Assembly: GCA_937891465.1 (NCBI GenBank)
Contig: CALAHF010000040.1
Span: forward strand, 1-53,712
Direction: 5' to 3'
Length of the DNA: 53,712 bases
Source: an uncultured Verrucomicrobiales bacterium
GTDB taxonomy: Bacteria; Verrucomicrobiota; Verrucomicrobiia; Verrucomicrobiales; DEV007
Part shown: piece by piece, positions 6,647 through 46,600 of the stretch
Numbering within the stretch: position 1 is the first letter of the stretch
Layout: each line of letters starts with the position of its first letter
The notes under the pieces: generated by a model
What the model saw: the letters and a program-made list of their open reading frames with translations, nothing else
Databases searched by the model: none
Told to the model about the DNA's origin: nothing
Made by a program: the position numbers and the translations under genes

Positions 6647-7051
6647 TTACAAACAAGAGAAGAGGAACAAAAAACGCGGAACGAAGGACCAAAAATTTAC
6701 CCGACAAATCGAAAAATTACAATCGCTCAAAACGCACCCGCAATTCAGCATTCACGAATCAATAGGGTTTGATCGATGAAGAGACCCTGTTGATTCGTAA
6801 AAACGGAGAAATCAAATTCACAAGTTTCTGCAAGCACTATGAGCAGTTTTGGAACTGCGAGAATGCTTCAGGCGAGAATTGATAGCGCAGACACCCCAAT
6901 GGGCGTTTTTCGTGAACTTGAATCTGCGATTCAATGGCTCGAACTCGAGGCAAAAGACCTCTTGATGGATTTGTAAAACCGGATTCCAACTCCGTGAAGT
7001 AAGATTGCAGAATGCTGCGGTTAAATTCTTGACCAATCTAACCCACAAGTC
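6647..7051. other. 405-bp divergent intergenic region
   Basis: This lies between the start of the kinase operon (minus) and the DUF2167 gene (plus), so it must hold promoters for both directions. It contains one copy of the 45-bp palindromic element (6754-6798). I saw no convincing gene. The minus-strand open frame at 6818-7048 lacks any recognisable pattern. No clear sigma-70 boxes could be assigned. Confidence 0.6.
6754..6798. repeat. 45-bp palindromic element, copy 1 (single, intergenic)
   Basis: Left arm ACGAATCAATAGGGT (6754-6768), 15-bp centre, right arm ACCCTGTTGATTCGT (6784-6798). The arms are inverted complements with a single mismatch, making this the best-preserved palindrome of the family. 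It is intergenic between two divergent operons. Confidence 0.9.
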
Positions 7052-14999: not shown

Positions 15000-15098
15000 A
15001 CAAAGCAACGGTATCCGTTCGACGAACATACCCCATCTGTACGTGAACACTTTTCGAACCAACAGTGTCCATTCATCGAACGCACCCTGTTGATTCGA
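15000..15098. repeat. palindromic element, copy 2 (99-bp doublet, intergenic)
   Basis: Two 45-bp units (15000-15044 and 15054-15098) are separated by 9 bp. The second unit ends in the conserved arm ACCCTGTTGATTCGA, and its left arm is TCGAACCAACAGTGT. The first unit is more diverged but keeps GTTCGACGAACATACCC. The doublet fills most of the gap between the TIM-barrel and antiporter genes. Confidence 0.85.
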
Positions 15099-21001: not shown

Positions 21002-22129
21002 CTACTTCCCTGATTTTGGGGCAATCCCAAACCGAAAAATCGTTACTTCATGAAGTTTTTCACCCGGGCGCAAAATAGTCGACGGAAAATTTGGTTTATT
21101 CGGGGAATCCGGAAAATGCTGCGTCTCAAAACAAATCGCCGGCCATTTCGGATCTTTCATATGATTTGCGGTGTAAATCTGCACCCCGGGCTGGGTGGTC
21201 AAAACCTCCATGACACGCCCCGTTTTTGGATCGGTGATACGAACCAATAGGGTTGGTTCGACGAACATACCCTGTTGCTTCGTGGAAACGAAACAGTGAT
21301 CAAATCCGCCAATTTCGATTTGCTCGATCGTATCTGAAATCGCATGCGGTTTACGAAAATCGAACGGCGTTCCCGCAACATTGATGAATTCGCCTGTAGG
21401 CACTTTCCGATCATCTATCGCGAGAATTTGATCCGATTTCAGTTCCAAAATGTGATCTGTAATCGTCGTTTTCGGATCACCAGATAGATTGAAATACGCA
21501 TGATTCGTCAAATTCAGGTGAGTTGGCTTCGTCGTAGTGGCCTGGTAATCAATCGTCAGCGAATTTTTATCGAGGCGATATTCGACCGTGAATGCAACCT
21601 CACCGGGAAACCCCTCGTGCCCGTCCGGACAGGTATGAGTCAGTTTCACCCCGCGCCAGCCTTCGCCATCGGTGAGCTCGGCCTTCCAAACCTGACTCTG
21701 AATTCCCGATTTTCCCCCATGGATGTGAACTTTCGTTTTTGGATTCACCGTCTCCAAATCGAAACGTGTTTCGTCCAGCGTGAAACCGCCGGTATCGATC
21801 CGGTTCGCAAATCGCCCGACGATATTTCCATTCAAGCCCCCTTTTTCCGCCGCCGCGAAATCAGGATAGGACAGCGTGATGTTTTTCGAAATCCCTTCGC
21901 GGTCTGAAGTTTCCAGCGACACCAACGTCGCTCCGAAAGTTGCGATTTTCACACGAACTCCCTTCTGATTTGTCAGCGCAAAAAGATCGACATGCTCACC
22001 GGATTTCGTCGTTCCCCACATTGCGCTGGTCACCGGCAGCGTCTGAGAATGCAACGTTCCTGCCACAAACGCGACACTTGCGAAAAAACCAGTTGTGACG
22101 AACTTTCTGACGTGATGAATCTGACTCAT
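21002..22129 (-). CDS. galM: exported aldose 1-epimerase carrying a palindromic-element peptide
   Basis: A 375-residue aldose epimerase (mutarotase) that interconverts alpha and beta anomers. It has a signal peptide (to about residue 28) and family motifs GRFANRID, TKVHIHGGKSG, THLNLTNHAYFNLSG, GGFDHCFV and EVLTTQPGVQIYTANHM, including the catalytic HAYFNL histidine region and a Glu in WPAICFETQHFPDSPN. Residues 283-297 (TKQQGMFVEPTLLVR) are exactly the translation of one 45-bp palindromic element at 21239-21283. They occupy the loop between DHCFV and the TDPKTGR strand, away from the motifs above, so activity is probably kept. Its first bases overlap the start of the divergent PQQ gene. Confidence 0.93.
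   Translation of the reverse strand: MSQIHHVRKFVTTGFFASVAFVAGTLHSQTLPVTSAMWGTTKSGEHVDLFALTNQKGVRVKIATFGATLVSLETSDREGISKNITLSYPDFAAAEKGGLNGNIVGRFANRIDTGGFTLDETRFDLETVNPKTKVHIHGGKSGIQSQVWKAELTDGEGWRGVKLTHTCPDGHEGFPGEVAFTVEYRLDKNSLTIDYQATTTKPTHLNLTNHAYFNLSGDPKTTITDHILELKSDQILAIDDRKVPTGEFINVAGTPFDFRKPHAISDTIEQIEIGGFDHCFVSTKQQGMFVEPTLLVRITDPKTGRVMEVLTTQPGVQIYTANHMKDPKWPAICFETQHFPDSPNKPNFPSTILRPGEKLHEVTIFRFGIAPKSGK
21239..21283. repeat. 45-bp palindromic element, copy 3 (single, inside galM)
   Basis: Left arm ACGAACCAATAGGGT, centre TGGTTCGACGAACAT, right arm ACCCTGTTGCTTCGT. The arms match as inverted repeats at 13 of 15 positions, and the centre is itself palindromic. It lies wholly inside the galM reading frame and supplies 15 codons with no stop. 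Confidence 0.92.
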
Positions 22130-28677: not shown

Positions 28678-29799
28678 CTAAATTAGCGCAGACGCGATTG
28701 GGTCCGCCAGCGCCTTTCCTTCTCGCGTTAGAAAAATACGCTCGTCGCGAATTTCGATCAGCCCCTGTTGGGTCATCGATTCAATAGGGTTGGATCGTAA
28801 AACCGTTTCAATCGAACAGGGTTCGTTCGTCGAACATACTCTATTGATTCGTAAACCTTCTCTCGTGCGAAGCTGCATCGCGATCGCTTCGATCCGACGA
28901 TCTTCCTCAGTCAAAGTTTCATGTTCGGTTTTTAAGGTCGGGCTTTCAACAAATCGAGCGGTGTCCGGCAGCGTTTTGGCTCGAATCCCATGAATCGTCG
29001 AGACGGCACCCGGACCAAGGCCCAGATAATCTTTTCCCGTCCAGTAAGCCCGGTTATGGCGAGATTCGAAGCCGCTTTGCCCGTAGTTTGAAATTTCGTA
29101 ATGCCCAAATCCGGCTGCTTCGAGATGATCGATTGCTTGATAAAACAGGTTGGCGTCGCGGTCCTCGTTTTCGTCGAGTTCACCACTTTCATGCCGCTTC
29201 AGGAACTCGGTATCTTCCTCGTAAGTGAGGTTGTAAGACGATACGTGCTCGGGTTTCAGCTCTGAGGTAACGATGTCCAGATCCTCTTGCCAAAGGGATT
29301 CGGTTTGTCCGGGGATTGAAAACATCAAGTCGATGGAAATGTTCATGAAACCAGCTTCGCGCAAGATTTCGAAGGCGATTTTTGCATCTTCGCCGGAATG
29401 ATCCCGGCCCAGAGTCTTTAGAATTCCTGTTTGAAAAGACTGAACTCCAAGGCTGATTCGGTTGATTCCGATCTCGCGCATGATGCGAGCTTTTTTCAAA
29501 TCGAAAGTCGCTGGGTTAGCCTCCAAAGTCACCTCCGTCTCGGGCGAAATGAAGGGGCGCAGGCCGCGGAACAACGTTTCCAAATGAACACTCGAAAGCA
29601 GACTGGGGGTTCCTCCGCCGAGGTAGAGGGTATCGAGTTTTTCAGCAAGAACTGACTTCTCGGCATCCAACTGGGAGAGAATCGCAGCGATAAAGGCGTC
29701 GTTCGCCAACTTGCCCGGCTTGTGTTTATAAAACGCACAGTAGGGGCAAATGTGATGGCAAAAGGGAATGTGAATGTAGCAATGAAAAACGGGGCTCAC
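28678..29799 (-). CDS. hemW: HemW-type radical SAM protein carrying palindromic-element peptide
   Basis: A 373-residue radical SAM enzyme of the HemW (haem chaperone, formerly HemN-like) family. The 4Fe-4S cysteines are C14, C18 and C21 in PFCHHICPYCAFY. LYLGGGTPSLL, TLEANPATFDLKKA, INRISLGVQSF, SIDLMFSIPGQT and GHYEISNYGQSG follow, then a winged-helix C terminus (LTREGKALADPIAS). From residue 317 on, about 25 residues (RINRVCSTNEPCSIETVLRS and after) are encoded by a palindromic-element doublet. Overall length is normal for HemW, so the element seems to have replaced rather than merely lengthened the segment between LRTREGL and QQGLIEI. Confidence 0.92.
   Translation of the reverse strand: MSPVFHCYIHIPFCHHICPYCAFYKHKPGKLANDAFIAAILSQLDAEKSVLAEKLDTLYLGGGTPSLLSSVHLETLFRGLRPFISPETEVTLEANPATFDLKKARIMREIGINRISLGVQSFQTGILKTLGRDHSGEDAKIAFEILREAGFMNISIDLMFSIPGQTESLWQEDLDIVTSELKPEHVSSYNLTYEEDTEFLKRHESGELDENEDRDANLFYQAIDHLEAAGFGHYEISNYGQSGFESRHNRAYWTGKDYLGLGPGAVSTIHGIRAKTLPDTARFVESPTLKTEHETLTEEDRRIEAIAMQLRTREGLRINRVCSTNEPCSIETVLRSNPIESMTQQGLIEIRDERIFLTREGKALADPIASALI
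28754..28852. repeat. palindromic element, copy 4 (99-bp doublet, inside hemW)
   Basis: The clear unit is 28808-28852 (centre TCGTTCGTCGAACAT, right arm ACTCTATTGATTCGT). A second unit at the same 54-bp period (28754-28798) is weaker but includes TCAATAGGGTTGGATCG and CCCCTGTTGGGTCATCGA. The 9-bp spacer AAAACCGTT resembles the spacer AAAGCCATT of copy 6. The 28754-28775 end may be native hemW sequence. Confidence 0.75.
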
Positions 29800-29987: not shown

Positions 29988-32093
29988 CTACCCTTTTCCT
30001 TTTCCTTTTTCTTTTCCTTTGCCTTTGCCTTTGCTTTTTCCTTTGCCGTTTCCGTCGTCTGAATCAGCGTCTTCGGCAGGACCTGTAGCAGGGGCCGTCA
30101 CTGGATCTGTATTCGGAGCTGTAACTGGAGCTGTAACTGGAGCGGTAACTGGAGATGCGCCCGCGGTTGTGTCGTCTGCAGCTGCGTCATCCCCCCAAAT
30201 CCGCTCAAGAAATCGAGTATCCCGCTTAGGAGACCACCTCCGCCAGAGCCTTCTTCGGATCCTCCGCTCGGCGGGTCTTCGATTGCGGTTCCGTCACTGC
30301 CAACATTACCCTGAGATTGCGTGGTGTTTTTGAGTGTTGCATACAGGTTTGATGTGGCTCCGTTATTCTCACGAACGTGGAATTCATCGAAATTCGAAAA
30401 GCCGTCCGCAGTGGTTTCTCCAAACTCAAGAACCAGCTCGAAAGTCAGGCCTGCAATCTCAAACTCGGTCGCACTATTCGACCGATCCATCCGGACATAG
30501 TCAGCGGATGCCCACCCTTCAATGTCGTTATTGTCGTTGATGGTGTTCACCAATTCGAACTCATAGTCGAAGGCAGTATTGTAGGTGGTGCCTCCAATAT
30601 CAAACGCAAGGTCAAGAGACAAGTCGACTGCATCGGCACCTGTGTTGGAAAGGAATCTTCCGTTGTAATAGTCAATATTTCCGATCAAGAAGCGGTCATC
30701 AAAGGCGATGCCTTCGACTTCACTTCCTTCGAATTCGAGGGAGCTCTTCGAAAAGCCGGAATAGGGGTTGCCATAGTAGTTTGTGATACGCCCCCACTCA
30801 AAGTAGTCGCTCTGTGAACTGCCATAGGGCAAATTTGTCTCCATTCCACTACCGCCCGATGGGTTGTGGAAGAGCCCATTCGCCAACCCGGCAAGATCAA
30901 ATTCCTCAGCGGTAAGAACACTCAGTTCGGTATCACTGTTGAGAAAATAGGGATCTTCCGAAATTGCCCTCGAATTGATGACTGCACCGCTTTCGAAATC
31001 AACCCGATCCAATAAAAGGAAATTCAGGTAATCATTCCAGGCTCCGTTGCCGATTCGGTATTGCATTGCCGAAGGATCGTCCCCGTTCGTGTCCTCCAAA
31101 ACCACTGCAATTAATCGATTGGCCAAAACGCCGAAGCTCTCGGACGAGGGATTAATCGCTGGCGGATTCAGCTGAACTGGAGTCGCAGAGAAGGTCGCCT
31201 CTTCACGGTTACTGTCGCTGAAGAGTTCACTCGTCGAGATTGCTTGAGTTGCAACTTGCGTGTCTGGCTCAATTTCAAAAATCGATCCTGTAATGTATTT
31301 CTCCCAATTCCCGTAATTAATCTGATAGTAGATTTCCGAAGTACCGGATTCGTTTGGGATCGTAAGGGTAATTCCAAGGTCAAAATCGCGAATCGCGTAA
31401 TCTCCGCTCGGAGTCGAAAAAACCGGCACACCCAATGGGGTCGTTTCTGGCTCTGGATCGGGATTCTGCGAACTCGGTGGAGGCGGATTCGTAACAATCG
31501 TGATCGAATTGTATGTCGTGAATTGAGAAGGTCCCTGAGGCGCTGCAGCAGCCACTTCTGTGAAATCCCAAACCCAGCTGTCCGTCCCCGAATAGAGAAA
31601 TGCGAAATCGCGTTCATCCACAGAGCGTTCAATCTCAGCGTCATCAGGATTCAAGAAAAACGCCGTGATTCCTTCTCCTTTGGTTGCCGTTTCAAATGTG
31701 TTTTTCGTCGAGTTCCATACAACCCGGGCTTCGCCCGAGTCTACATTGTCTTCCGATGTGACCACTGCTGCAATCCGGCGATCTACCATTGATGAAGAAA
31801 GTCCCGGTATACGGCTCGCAATGTCCGAGTGCGCCACTGAACGAAGTTTAGAAAGCGCATCTTCCGGCTTGGTCACGTCATCAAAGTTTCCTCCAAAGCC
31901 GAGATAGGTGGCAGCGGCAGAATTCAATGTCGCTACCTCGGCGGAGAGTTTGTTCTCTAGAACCGAATCATTCAGGTTTGACAGGAAGCTAGATCCTACG
32001 CCGGCGAGGATTCCCACGATCGCAACGACCCCGAGAAGCTGTACCAGTTAGAAGCCGTAAGCTTTGTTTTTTGAGTAAATCAAAGTTTTCATT
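29988..32093 (-). pseudogene. type IV pilin/pseudopilin-like gene with disrupted leader and tail
   Basis: ATG 32093 begins a prepilin-like leader (MKTLIYSKNKAYGF) that should continue into LVELLGVVAIVGILAG. Instead a TAA follows GF (32051-32049) and a one-base shift follows LVQ, after which the long frame (from about 32040; LLGVVAIVGILAGVGSSFL) runs to 30098. The body has Ser/Asp/Glu-rich secreted-type repeats without a family I know. At a G6 run (30191-30196) the frame shifts from a natural-looking tail (PVTAPVTAPVTA, then GNGKGKSKGKGKGKEKG, stop 29988) into a Gln/Leu-rich artefact ending at 30098. There are three lesions in all, so it is either a dead gene or a badly resolved one. Confidence 0.65.
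30115..30156. repeat. 12-bp tandem repeat encoding Pro-Val-Thr-Ala units
   Basis: The unit GGAGCTGTAACT occurs about 3.5 times with one or two substitutions. Read on the minus strand in the restored frame it gives PVTA repeats, a spacer-like segment before the Gly/Lys-rich tail of the pilin-like protein. Confidence 0.75.
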
Positions 32094-36479: not shown

Positions 36480-36524
36480 ACGAATCAACAGGGTATCTTC
36501 GACGAATCAACCCTATCTGATCGA
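36480..36524. repeat. 45-bp palindromic element, copy 5 (single, before a sulfatase start)
   Basis: Left arm ACGAATCAACAGGGT, centre ATCTTCGACGAATCA, right arm ACCCTATCTGATCGA. The arms match at about 9 of 15, so it is an older or eroded copy. It fills the 62-bp gap between the BNR-type gene and the sulfatase. Confidence 0.85.
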
Positions 36525-41088: not shown

Positions 41089-41187
41089 ACGGACAGATAA
41101 GGTTGGTTCGACAAACATACCCTGTTGATTCGAAAAGCCATTTCGAACGTACCCTGTTGGTTCATCGAACATACCCTGTTGCTTCGA
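41089..41187. repeat. palindromic element, copy 6 (99-bp doublet, convergent intergenic)
   Basis: Unit one (41089-41133) has centre TGGTTCGACAAACAT and right arm ACCCTGTTGATTCGA. Unit two (41143-41187) has centre TGGTTCATCGAACAT and right arm ACCCTGTTGCTTCGA. The spacer AAAGCCATT is 9 bp. The unit-one left arm is diverged. The doublet fills the gap between the SHD1/DUF1080-like gene and the PSD1 pseudogene, where a terminator would be expected. Confidence 0.88.
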
Positions 41188-43634: not shown

Positions 43635-46600
43635 ATGACTAGAATGATTCTTCGAAGCGTGCTGGCGTTGATCCTGCTTATTTCGAGCGGGCTGAAGGCG
43701 GAGGACTATCGCAAATCGATTCGCAACACATCTCCCATTCTTTATTGGGACTTTGAAAATCAGCCGGAAGAAACCGGAACTATCAAAGGCGATGTGAAAT
43801 TCGGAGTTTCTGGTCCGACTTCAAAAACCGCCAAGTTGCTGCCGGCAAAAAACAAGGGAGCCACATTCGGCGGTGATGGTGCTCGAATCGTGGTGAAAGA
43901 CCCCGGGCCGGGCAGCCAGTTTGATTTCGAAAACGGAGATCCAATCGCGATCGAATGCTGGGTAAATCCAACCGAAATTTCTTCCGGGGCTCACGCTTAC
44001 ATCATCGGAAAGGGACGCACGGGAAACAGCGGATTTTCAGCAAACAACCAAAACTGGGCGCTTCGTTTGACGGGTGAAAAAGGAGATGGGATGCCGAATT
44101 TCCTTTTCCGAAGTCGCGATGGAAAAGTAATGAAGGGCGATTTTCATCGATGGAAAGCAGATAGCGGAATCAAACTGAACTCCGGCTGGCATCACTTGGC
44201 TATCACTTATGTTTTTGGAAAACCGGATTCAGTTCGCACATGGATCGATGGCGAAAAAGTGACCGGCACCTGGGACATGGGCGGAAAAACTGAACAAGAA
44301 CCGTTTGTTGATGACGACGAAATTTGGGTCGGTTCAACATCGAAAGGAAGTGCCAGTAACAGTTTTCGGGGATCCATTGATGAGCTTGCCGTCTACCGAC
44401 TCGAATTTGACGAAGAACACCTCGCGGCTCGCGTGAAGATTCCCGAGTATCAGCCACTGGTCGATACCGCCGCTATTCCTGACGGCAAGGTTCGTGTCGA
44501 GATCATTGAGAATCTCGGGGTGAAGAAAAAGTGGCCGCGACGCTTTCCGGATGCCGATCCGAAGCAGGAATTTATCGACGATTCCTTCGCGTTCTATCAG
44601 ATGCCGCAAAAATACAATGACACCGGTCTGCGTGACGATCGCTCCAATCCATTGATGGTTCGGGCCAGCACAAAAGCCATGTTACCAGAAAAAGATTTGC
44701 GAATTGTCCTGCGAACGCGGGGAGCCGGCCGTCTGTGGATGGACGGAAAAATGATCGCCGAAACCGCATTTGCCTACACGGGTGGGGGAGCTCACAACAG
44801 CGTGATGGCAACGACATTGCGGCACTCTCCAGAAATGCGAATCCTCGGCCCGGGCGATCGGGAAAGTCTTGTGATTCTAAAAGGAGACGGGAAGCCTCAC
44901 GTGTTTGTCCTCGAAACAATTTTAGGCAACGGCTCCGTTCGCGCATCTCTTGGTGAAACAAGTGTCAGCATTTCTGAAGCAGGTGGAGAGTTTTATTTAC
45001 TGTCTCCGAAAGAAGAAAAAGTGTGGCTCTCTGAAAAGGGGTGGGACGATTTCCGCCAGCGGCGCATCGGCTTTTTTCGTGACCTGGATTCAAAAAAACG
45101 ACGAGTCGCCGGTTCAAACGAACAGAATTATTGGAAACAACGCCATGCTTACGCTTCCAAAATTGTCAGTGGAAAATTAAAGACGAACGAGATTGATAGC
45201 CTCTTAAAAGCAAGCTGGGAAAAAGCTGCCAGCGAAGGACCAACAAGCGCCTTGGCAAAAGAAGTGCAGGCCATTTTTTCTGAAAAGTGTTTCCGTTGCC
45301 ATGGCGAAAAGGTAAAGGGTGGACTCCGGCTGGATGATCACGATGCCATTCTAAAAGGCGGCGATTCGGAATCGCCCGCTCTTGTCGCGTGTAAGCCGGA
45401 AGAGAGTTTTCTCGTCGAACTAATCCATCCTGAAGCAGAAGATCGAATGCCGCCGAAGGGAGATGCGCTTTCGGAAAAAGAACGCGCCACGATCCAGGAA
45501 TGGATCGCTAAAGGGGCGGAACGATTTGATAGGGTTGACTCATCGATCGAACCCTCTTTGATCGTGAATGATTTACATTTTCTTCGCCGCGCAACGCTGG
45601 ACATTGTGGGTCTTGTCCCAAGCCCCGAAGAGATTGAAGCCTTTCTAGCAGATGACGAATCCCGCCGCGCCAATGCGATTGATCGCCTTCTGGCTGATGA
45701 TCGCTGGGCCGATCACTGGGTCAGTTACTGGCAGGATGTATTGGCGGAAAATCCCAATATTCTCAAACCCACGTTGAACAACACGGGACCGTTTCGTTTC
45801 TGGATTTACGAATCGCTCCTCGATAACAAACCGATGGACCAGTTCGTAACTGAATTGGTAAAAATGGAAGGAAGCTCACTCATCGGAGGTCCGGCAGGTT
45901 TTGGTTTGGCCTTTCAAAATGACGTGCCGATGGCGGCAAAAGCTAACACGATCGGAACGGCTTTTCTCGGAGTCGAAATGAAGTGCGCCCGGTGTCATGA
46001 TGCGCCGTATCACGAATCAAAACAGCGGGATCTATTTGAACTGGCGGCGATGCTGAATCAGGAAGGAATCAAGTTGCCCACGAGTTCAACGGTGCCGGCA
46101 GGCTCAATTCCGGCCAGTCGAAAACCCCTCATTGAAATTACTTTGAAGGCTGGTGAAACGATCGAACCCCGCTGGCCGTTTGGTGATTTATCGGGAGCGG
46201 CCACAACTCCCGTCTGGGCAGAAGTTGAATCGATGCGGGAAAAGGTCGCGTGGAAACTCACTTCTCCGCACAATGAGCGCTTTGCTCAAGTCATGGCAAA
46301 CCGAGTGTGGAAACGCCTGTTGGGGACGGGATTTGTTGATCCGGTCGATGATTGGGAAGCGGGGAAACCGACCCACCCAAAATTGCTTGGTCGATTGGCA
46401 GATCATTTTGTGGCCACTGGTTATGACTTGAAGGAAATGGTACGCGTGGTGATGAACTCAGAAGCGTATCAGCGGGAATCACGTCCGGAGGTGATCGGTC
46501 AGGACCCTACGTTTTCTCATCAAATCCAACGTCGCATGAGTGCAGAACAGGTCGTCGACTCTCTGTTTTCGATTTCTGGAAAACCGCTCGATTCCGAAGA

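Follow-up and report, generated by a model that had tools for sequence, protein, structure and literature searches.

A dispersed palindromic repeat forms a probable inherited, in-frame array within hemW of a Verrucomicrobiales bacterium

hemW and its four repeat units

The window analysed here (53,712 nucleotides) is the entire contig C40 of G000, a Verrucomicrobiales MAG that exists as a draft of 5.97 Mb in 229 contigs. Its minus strand carries hemW, which encodes a radical SAM heme chaperone of 373 amino acids with no internal stops. The protein matches the TIGR00539 profile at 273.5 bits, above the membership cut-off of 205.4, and contains the radical-SAM motif CHHICPYC (Cx3Cx2C). The HemN_C profile matches residues 296–363, 68 residues that cover profile positions 1–66 of 67. 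This match spans 68 residues in G001 as well, the only same-genus relative (the genus of these two species is called g1 below, and g2 and g12 are related genera), and 53–62 residues in all six tested relatives outside g1. Within the C-terminal domain, hemW contains four copies of a palindromic repeat unit, arranged as two doublets.

28678–29799, minus strand: hemW, the host gene, in an intact frame, with matches to TIGR00539, Radical_SAM and HemN_C
28831–28851, minus strand: unit U1 of the 5′ doublet, encoding RINRVCS, genus-specific, profile score 22.1
28809–28829, minus strand: unit U2 of the 5′ doublet, encoding about TNEPCSIE, genus-specific, profile score 24.2
28798–28808, minus strand: 11-nt linker joining the doublets; the resulting unit spacing of 32 is seen 32 times in 1.22 Mb of G000
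28777–28797, minus strand: unit U3 of the 3′ doublet, encoding RSNPIES at the position of a native segment, profile score 26.9; the same register is element-like in g2 and g12
28755–28775, minus strand: unit U4 of the 3′ doublet, encoding about MTQQGLIE at the native LxxxGL motif, profile score 14.8

The array occupies 28755–28851, with units at offsets 0, 22, 54 and 76 and hence spacings of 22, 32 and 22 nt, and it follows the same unit grammar as arrays elsewhere in G000. Its 5′ doublet reads RINRVCSTNEPCSIE. An earlier note on this DNA had placed a repeat, read as protein, inside HemW; we confirm this, as four units in an intact frame. The note was also right that the frame differs from that in galM, as HemW starts the unit at the first base of a codon (RINRV...) and galM one base later (KQQGMFVEPTLLVR). 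A solved-structure search with HemW returned five matches, all restricted to the radical-SAM core and none covering the C-terminal domain, and the array can therefore not be placed on a known structure.

A fragment on another contig of the genome (G000:C20:28782-29077) is 59–66% identical to HemW residues 1–98 and has two in-frame TAA codons; it may be what is left of a second, decayed hemW, or foreign DNA. In the window, a short run of CCTTTT/CCTTTG repeats lies at 29990–30033, between hemW and the next open reading frame.

The repeat family and its other host genes

As defined from 454 kb of G000, the unit is a stem-loop of 21 nt in which arms of 8 nt (CGAWYSAA/TTSRWTCG) flank a core of 5 nt (CAGGG or its complement). 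A doublet of 43 nt consists of two units separated by a single linker base, and two doublets may in turn be connected by a linker of 11 nt; the arms vary naturally across the family. In the window, the core pattern with at most two mismatches matched 12 times against 0.77 expected, a count reached in 0 of 100 shuffles. An iterated unit profile (threshold 13) gave 309 matches over both strands of the 454 kb, compared with 4 when the sequence was shuffled once. Across 1.22 Mb of G000, 427 units fell into 208 loci and were spaced by 22 nt (179 times), 32 nt (32 times) or 54 nt (four times), with four other spacings. The window holds further copies, in two other genes and between genes.

21240–21282, minus strand: doublet in galM (KQQGMFVEPTLLVR), in a reading frame other than that in hemW, scores 31.7 and 26.2
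45522–45564, plus strand: weak doublet in a 1206-aa open reading frame (RFDRVDSSIEPSLIV), scores 13.4 and 20.0
6755–6797, no strand assigned: intergenic doublet by pattern match, with a 14-bp stem (z −4.91)
15055–15097, no strand assigned: intergenic doublet by pattern match
36481–36523, no strand assigned: intergenic doublet by pattern match
41090–41186, no strand assigned: intergenic array by pattern match, a doublet, 11 nt and a second doublet

Folded as DNA, the galM doublet (z −5.33) and the intergenic doublet at 6755–6797 are strongly structured, and that of hemW is weakly so (z −1.54). A further intergenic doublet, whose units run in the same direction, shows no structure (z 0.12). No Rfam model matched the window at gathering score, and a known structured RNA family was rejected. 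We observed that nearly all spacings in G000 (stretches L150–L169 and L332–L371) are 22, 32 or 54 nt, or about 2, 3 and 5 helical turns; this could point to a DNA-binding protein. Unit dialects also differ between related genomes, with TTCAATAGGGTACAATC in G019 (L312–L317) and CGATCAAACAGGGTCTCATCG in G012 (L305–L311).

Copy number varies steeply across the family. With at most two mismatches, a survey of 74 family genomes (2 of g1, 4 of g12, 33 of g2 and 35 others) found 1155 unit matches in G000 and 1475 in G001, 39–308 in the four g12 genomes, 0–65 in the 33 g2 genomes and 0–2 in the remaining 35, while a reversed-pattern control gave at most one match per strand; the named genomes with the repeat are all Verrucomicrobiales MAGs. 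Extrapolation from the 1.22 Mb suggests about 1,000 repeat loci per genome, a rough figure given that the contigs were chosen through earlier matches. Carriage by viral contigs was rejected on 0 exact matches to one pattern.

Most copies lie between genes. The locus survey covered 1.22 Mb of G000, in stretches from contigs already known by earlier matches, and 0.49 Mb of G001 (L112, L127 and L128, which belong to other MAGs, are excluded from its counts); weak single units, 16 in G000 and 2 in G001, are omitted from the gene-location count. Among 193 loci in G000, 132 are intergenic, 32 sit at gene edges and 29 are intragenic, in sequence of which 88.8% of bases are coding. Divergent gaps hold 22 loci in 36.8 kb, about half the per-kb density of the other gap types (tandem gaps, 36 in 32.3 kb and 44 in 35.9 kb; convergent gaps, 24 in 20.1 kb). 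Intragenic doublets were called 23 times in G000 and 12 times in G001. Gene starts are approximate, and some of these calls may reflect misplaced starts; the galM doublet is additional to the 23, as the simple gene caller missed its host gene. All three frames are used (3 : 14 : 6 for unit offsets 0, 1 and 2; G000, n = 23), and the frame in HemW is the rarest. The hemW case is not special: it is one of many cases in G000 of the repeat lying within a gene.

Several of these copies have counterparts in relatives, with differing effects on protein length. The galM doublet of G000 has a weaker counterpart at the corresponding site in G001, with a net change of about +3 against relatives without it. 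Doublets in PBP1C and in a HEAT/cytochrome-like protein are shared by G000, G001 and, more weakly, G012; the PBP1C window is 75 aa in G000 and G001 and 72–79 aa in 13 relatives without the doublet (net change about 0), and the HEAT/cytochrome-like protein is longer by 5 to 19 residues than in such relatives. The helicase doublet is strong in G001 and weaker in G000, and its window is 70 aa in six of seven genes and 71 in one (net change about 0). In the 1206-aa open reading frame, the net change is +1 against G012 and 0 against G080. Gene P0005 of G001 has no full match in G000 and a 36%-identical relative, lacking the unit, in G009. Between G000 and G001, the element is rather conserved in the helicase and PBP1C (48 of 809 and 34 of 762 windows are as low) and not conserved in the HEAT protein (274 of 1042) or galM (142 of 322).

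The 5′ and 3′ doublets of hemW

A HemW search matched in 56 of 57 genomes, and an alignment begun with 30 loci was taken to 37 genes, comprising 2 from g1, 28 from g2, 4 from g12 and 3 from other genera. The 5′ doublet, U1–U2, is present in G000 and G001 and absent from all 35 genes outside g1. Its U2 copy in G001 scores 28.4, and the variants AACGAACCC and TGTTCGAT are common to both genomes. Since the two species share these odd substitutions, the comparison points to one ancestral event: most simply, U1–U2 arose once, before they split. The two copies differ at 7 of 45 nt, which makes U1–U2 better conserved between the species than most of hemW: elsewhere in the gene, only 14 of 326 windows of fifteen codons have so few differences.

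The doublet also changed the length of the protein. In g1 the hemW segment has 43 residues, compared with 31 in 27 of the 28 g2 genes, 37–39 in g12 and 33 in the three others, so that the gain is 12 residues against g2 but only 4–6 against g12. Doublet and linker together make 18 codons; because the gain of 12 is smaller, about six native codons were apparently lost. U1–U2 thus brought a net gain in length, apparently with some replacement of the native segment.

The 3′ doublet, U3–U4, differs in its distribution. The most unit-like position anywhere in hemW falls in the register of this doublet in 21 of 28 g2 genes, 3 of 4 g12 genes and none of 3 outgroup genes. The U4 register ranks among the top three hemW positions in 24 of the 28 g2 genes; seven of the 28 have their best position elsewhere, and of the best positions that do lie in the U3–U4 register, 24 over g2 and g12 together, some score low or negative (for example, in G070 and G023). 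Between G000 and G001, 9 of the 15 encoded residues differ. From these alignments, U3–U4 is probably, though not provably, an older, length-neutral doublet that is element-like in three genera.

It is also possible, although we lean against it, that U3–U4 is a coincidence, a native motif that happens to resemble a unit, and that U1–U2 alone derives from the element. U3–U4 coincides with the native HemW segment NPxESLxQQGL, the segment NPVESLxQQGL is also carried by element-poor relatives, and the segment length is near that of the outgroups (31 against 33 aa). Even in outgroup G009, the U4 position is second-best of 1093, at a score of −4, where it resembles the native L-x-x-x-G-L motif. Synonymous shuffles reach the observed U3–U4 score in 1% of cases for G002, 3.5% for G026 and 0.9% for G035, but in only 0.05% for G012. 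Against coincidence, too, three genera have both U3 and U4 in the 22-nt register, and conservation of the core codons is unusually high in g2: for excess synonymous conservation of CCT, GTT, CAG and GGT, 2, 25, 7 and 4 of 247 columns rank above them (26 of the 28 g2 genes, without G062 and G058).

Origin of the coding copies

We consider it likely that the dispersed palindromic repeat forms an in-frame array in this segment of hemW and that the array was inherited vertically. The family would have spread as a REP- or RPE-like non-autonomous element, and intragenic copies would have survived where the host protein tolerated the 14–15 encoded residues; in hemW, the tolerating site may have been the variable part that precedes the end of the winged helix. 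With less confidence, U3–U4 would be an older doublet that the shared ancestor of g1, g2 and g12 acquired and that supplied codons for an existing segment and left its length unchanged. No empty and filled site pair with clean ends was found. Around 110 isolated doublets of G000 and 117 of G001, direct repeats at offsets 0–15 were not clearly above expectation, so the target-site duplication of a MITE is not seen, and with neither a clean site pair nor a duplication, insertion itself is a putative step. A consistent, clean gain of 14 or 15 codons was seen in no intragenic case with relatives, and no mobilising enzyme was identified.

DNA uptake sequences in Haemophilus and Neisseria occur in about a thousand copies, often as inverted pairs and in place within genes, as single words of about 9–12 nt. 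The present repeat may be likened to them in its thousand or so copies, inverted pairs and intragenic presence. An unlikely alternative is that the units are uptake-like sites or binding sites of a sequence-specific DNA protein that arose in place through mutation and biased conversion, the intragenic copies being native codons drawn towards the consensus. The length-neutral copies in the helicase, PBP1C and the 1206-aa protein would fit such a route, as would spacings near whole helical turns, the lineage dialects of G012 and G019, and the synonymous conservation of core codons in g2 hemW. However, a 43-nt doublet of fixed spacing is hard to make by point changes, and length was gained in HemW U1–U2 (+12) and the HEAT protein (+5 to +19). 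In addition, the orthologous sites of four other host genes have no prior unit-likeness in 49 genes without the element (mean percentile 0.48), and pre-existing resemblance at those target sites was rejected.

A similarly improbable reading is that the repeat overwrites host DNA at equal length, by template switching or conversion, rather than inserting, and did so at least twice in hemW. Host genes would in this way swap native codons for those of the element with no shift of frame. The old doublet, conserved at the DNA level, would then encode the end of the winged helix in three genera, and the second would have been added in g1 with a partial gain in length. The helicase, PBP1C, the 1206-aa protein and hemW U3–U4 all have element-like codons and have changed little, if at all, in length.

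More doubtful still is the form that the earlier note gave to the event, in which one doublet replaced about 25 HemW residues, left the length unchanged and was selected to stay open. The extent was about right, as element DNA encodes some 25–32 residues, but in four units rather than one doublet. Normal length holds against the HemN_C profile but not against g2, where 27 of 28 genes have a segment 12 residues shorter; likewise, part of the native segment was apparently overwritten, but U1–U2 was a net addition. The claim of a mutated in-frame stop holds to the letter for one arm variant (TGT TGA in TTGATTCG arms, TGT TCG in hemW), but arms vary naturally. Selection cannot be read from the open frame, because roughly 65% of the doublets outside genes have no stop in the hemW frame anyway: 63% of readings in G000 (53 doublets, both strands) and 66% in G001 (92 doublets). 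The note had further proposed looking for element-less relatives with the same hemW segment, and here the doublets part ways: U1–U2 is absent from every gene outside g1, and the U3–U4 segment is present in element-poor relatives.

The preferred reading, a dispersed repeat inherited in frame, invites comparison with two known systems. The RPE is described as a palindrome of about 150 bp, first reported from 44 integrations in R. conorii, that lies in frame in unrelated protein genes and is found in more than one species (PMC10969869). The present repeat is likewise palindromic, read in frame in unrelated genes and shared between species; in size, location and host it is set apart from that description by its 21-nt units and 43-nt doublets, its thousand or so mostly intergenic loci and its host order, Verrucomicrobiales. 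REPs are described as GTAG- or CGTC-tagged palindromes, with partners 1–2 bp apart in some families, and intragenic REP dimers encode 20–30 residues, including in the verrucomicrobium Opitutus terrae (PMC3733652). In general form the repeat agrees with them, as 20–40-nt stem-loops in high copy, mainly intergenic, often in inverted pairs and with coding dimers inside genes. It differs from REPs as so described in its fixed 22/32-nt spacings and in having no conserved tag and no intact RAYT in either draft: of the 179 doublets counted in G000 and the 124 in G001, 24 and 7, respectively, have GTAG/CTAC inside them or at most 8 nt away, and 31 and 20 have CGTC/GACG across the doublet centre.

Mobilisation as a canonical REP family by a RAYT (Y1 transposase) of G000 would suit the stem-loop form of the units, their inverted pairing and their mostly intergenic position, but it is very unlikely and largely refuted, as neither a GTAG nor a CGTC tag is conserved, G000 has one Y1_Tnp match, with an internal stop, and G001 one weak partial match, neither with a unit in its fetched flanks in these draft genomes, and relatives with few units (G004 and others) have up to 36 Y1_Tnp matches. 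On tag, RAYT, size and target duplication, we therefore class the family as a member of neither REP nor RPE, and it shares its general form with both of these already-known coding palindromes. A literature search at the level of titles and abstracts recognised no published description of it.

Palindromic repeats that encode protein have their best-known examples in Rickettsia. The family described here is untagged, keeps a rigid 22/32-nt spacing over about a thousand loci and, with no intact RAYT found, supplies conserved housekeeping proteins with some of their codons. These repeat-derived codons are inherited across species and, in some genes, across genera. Together they provide orthologous cases of repeat DNA turned into protein, and a test bed for distinguishing insertion from overwriting.
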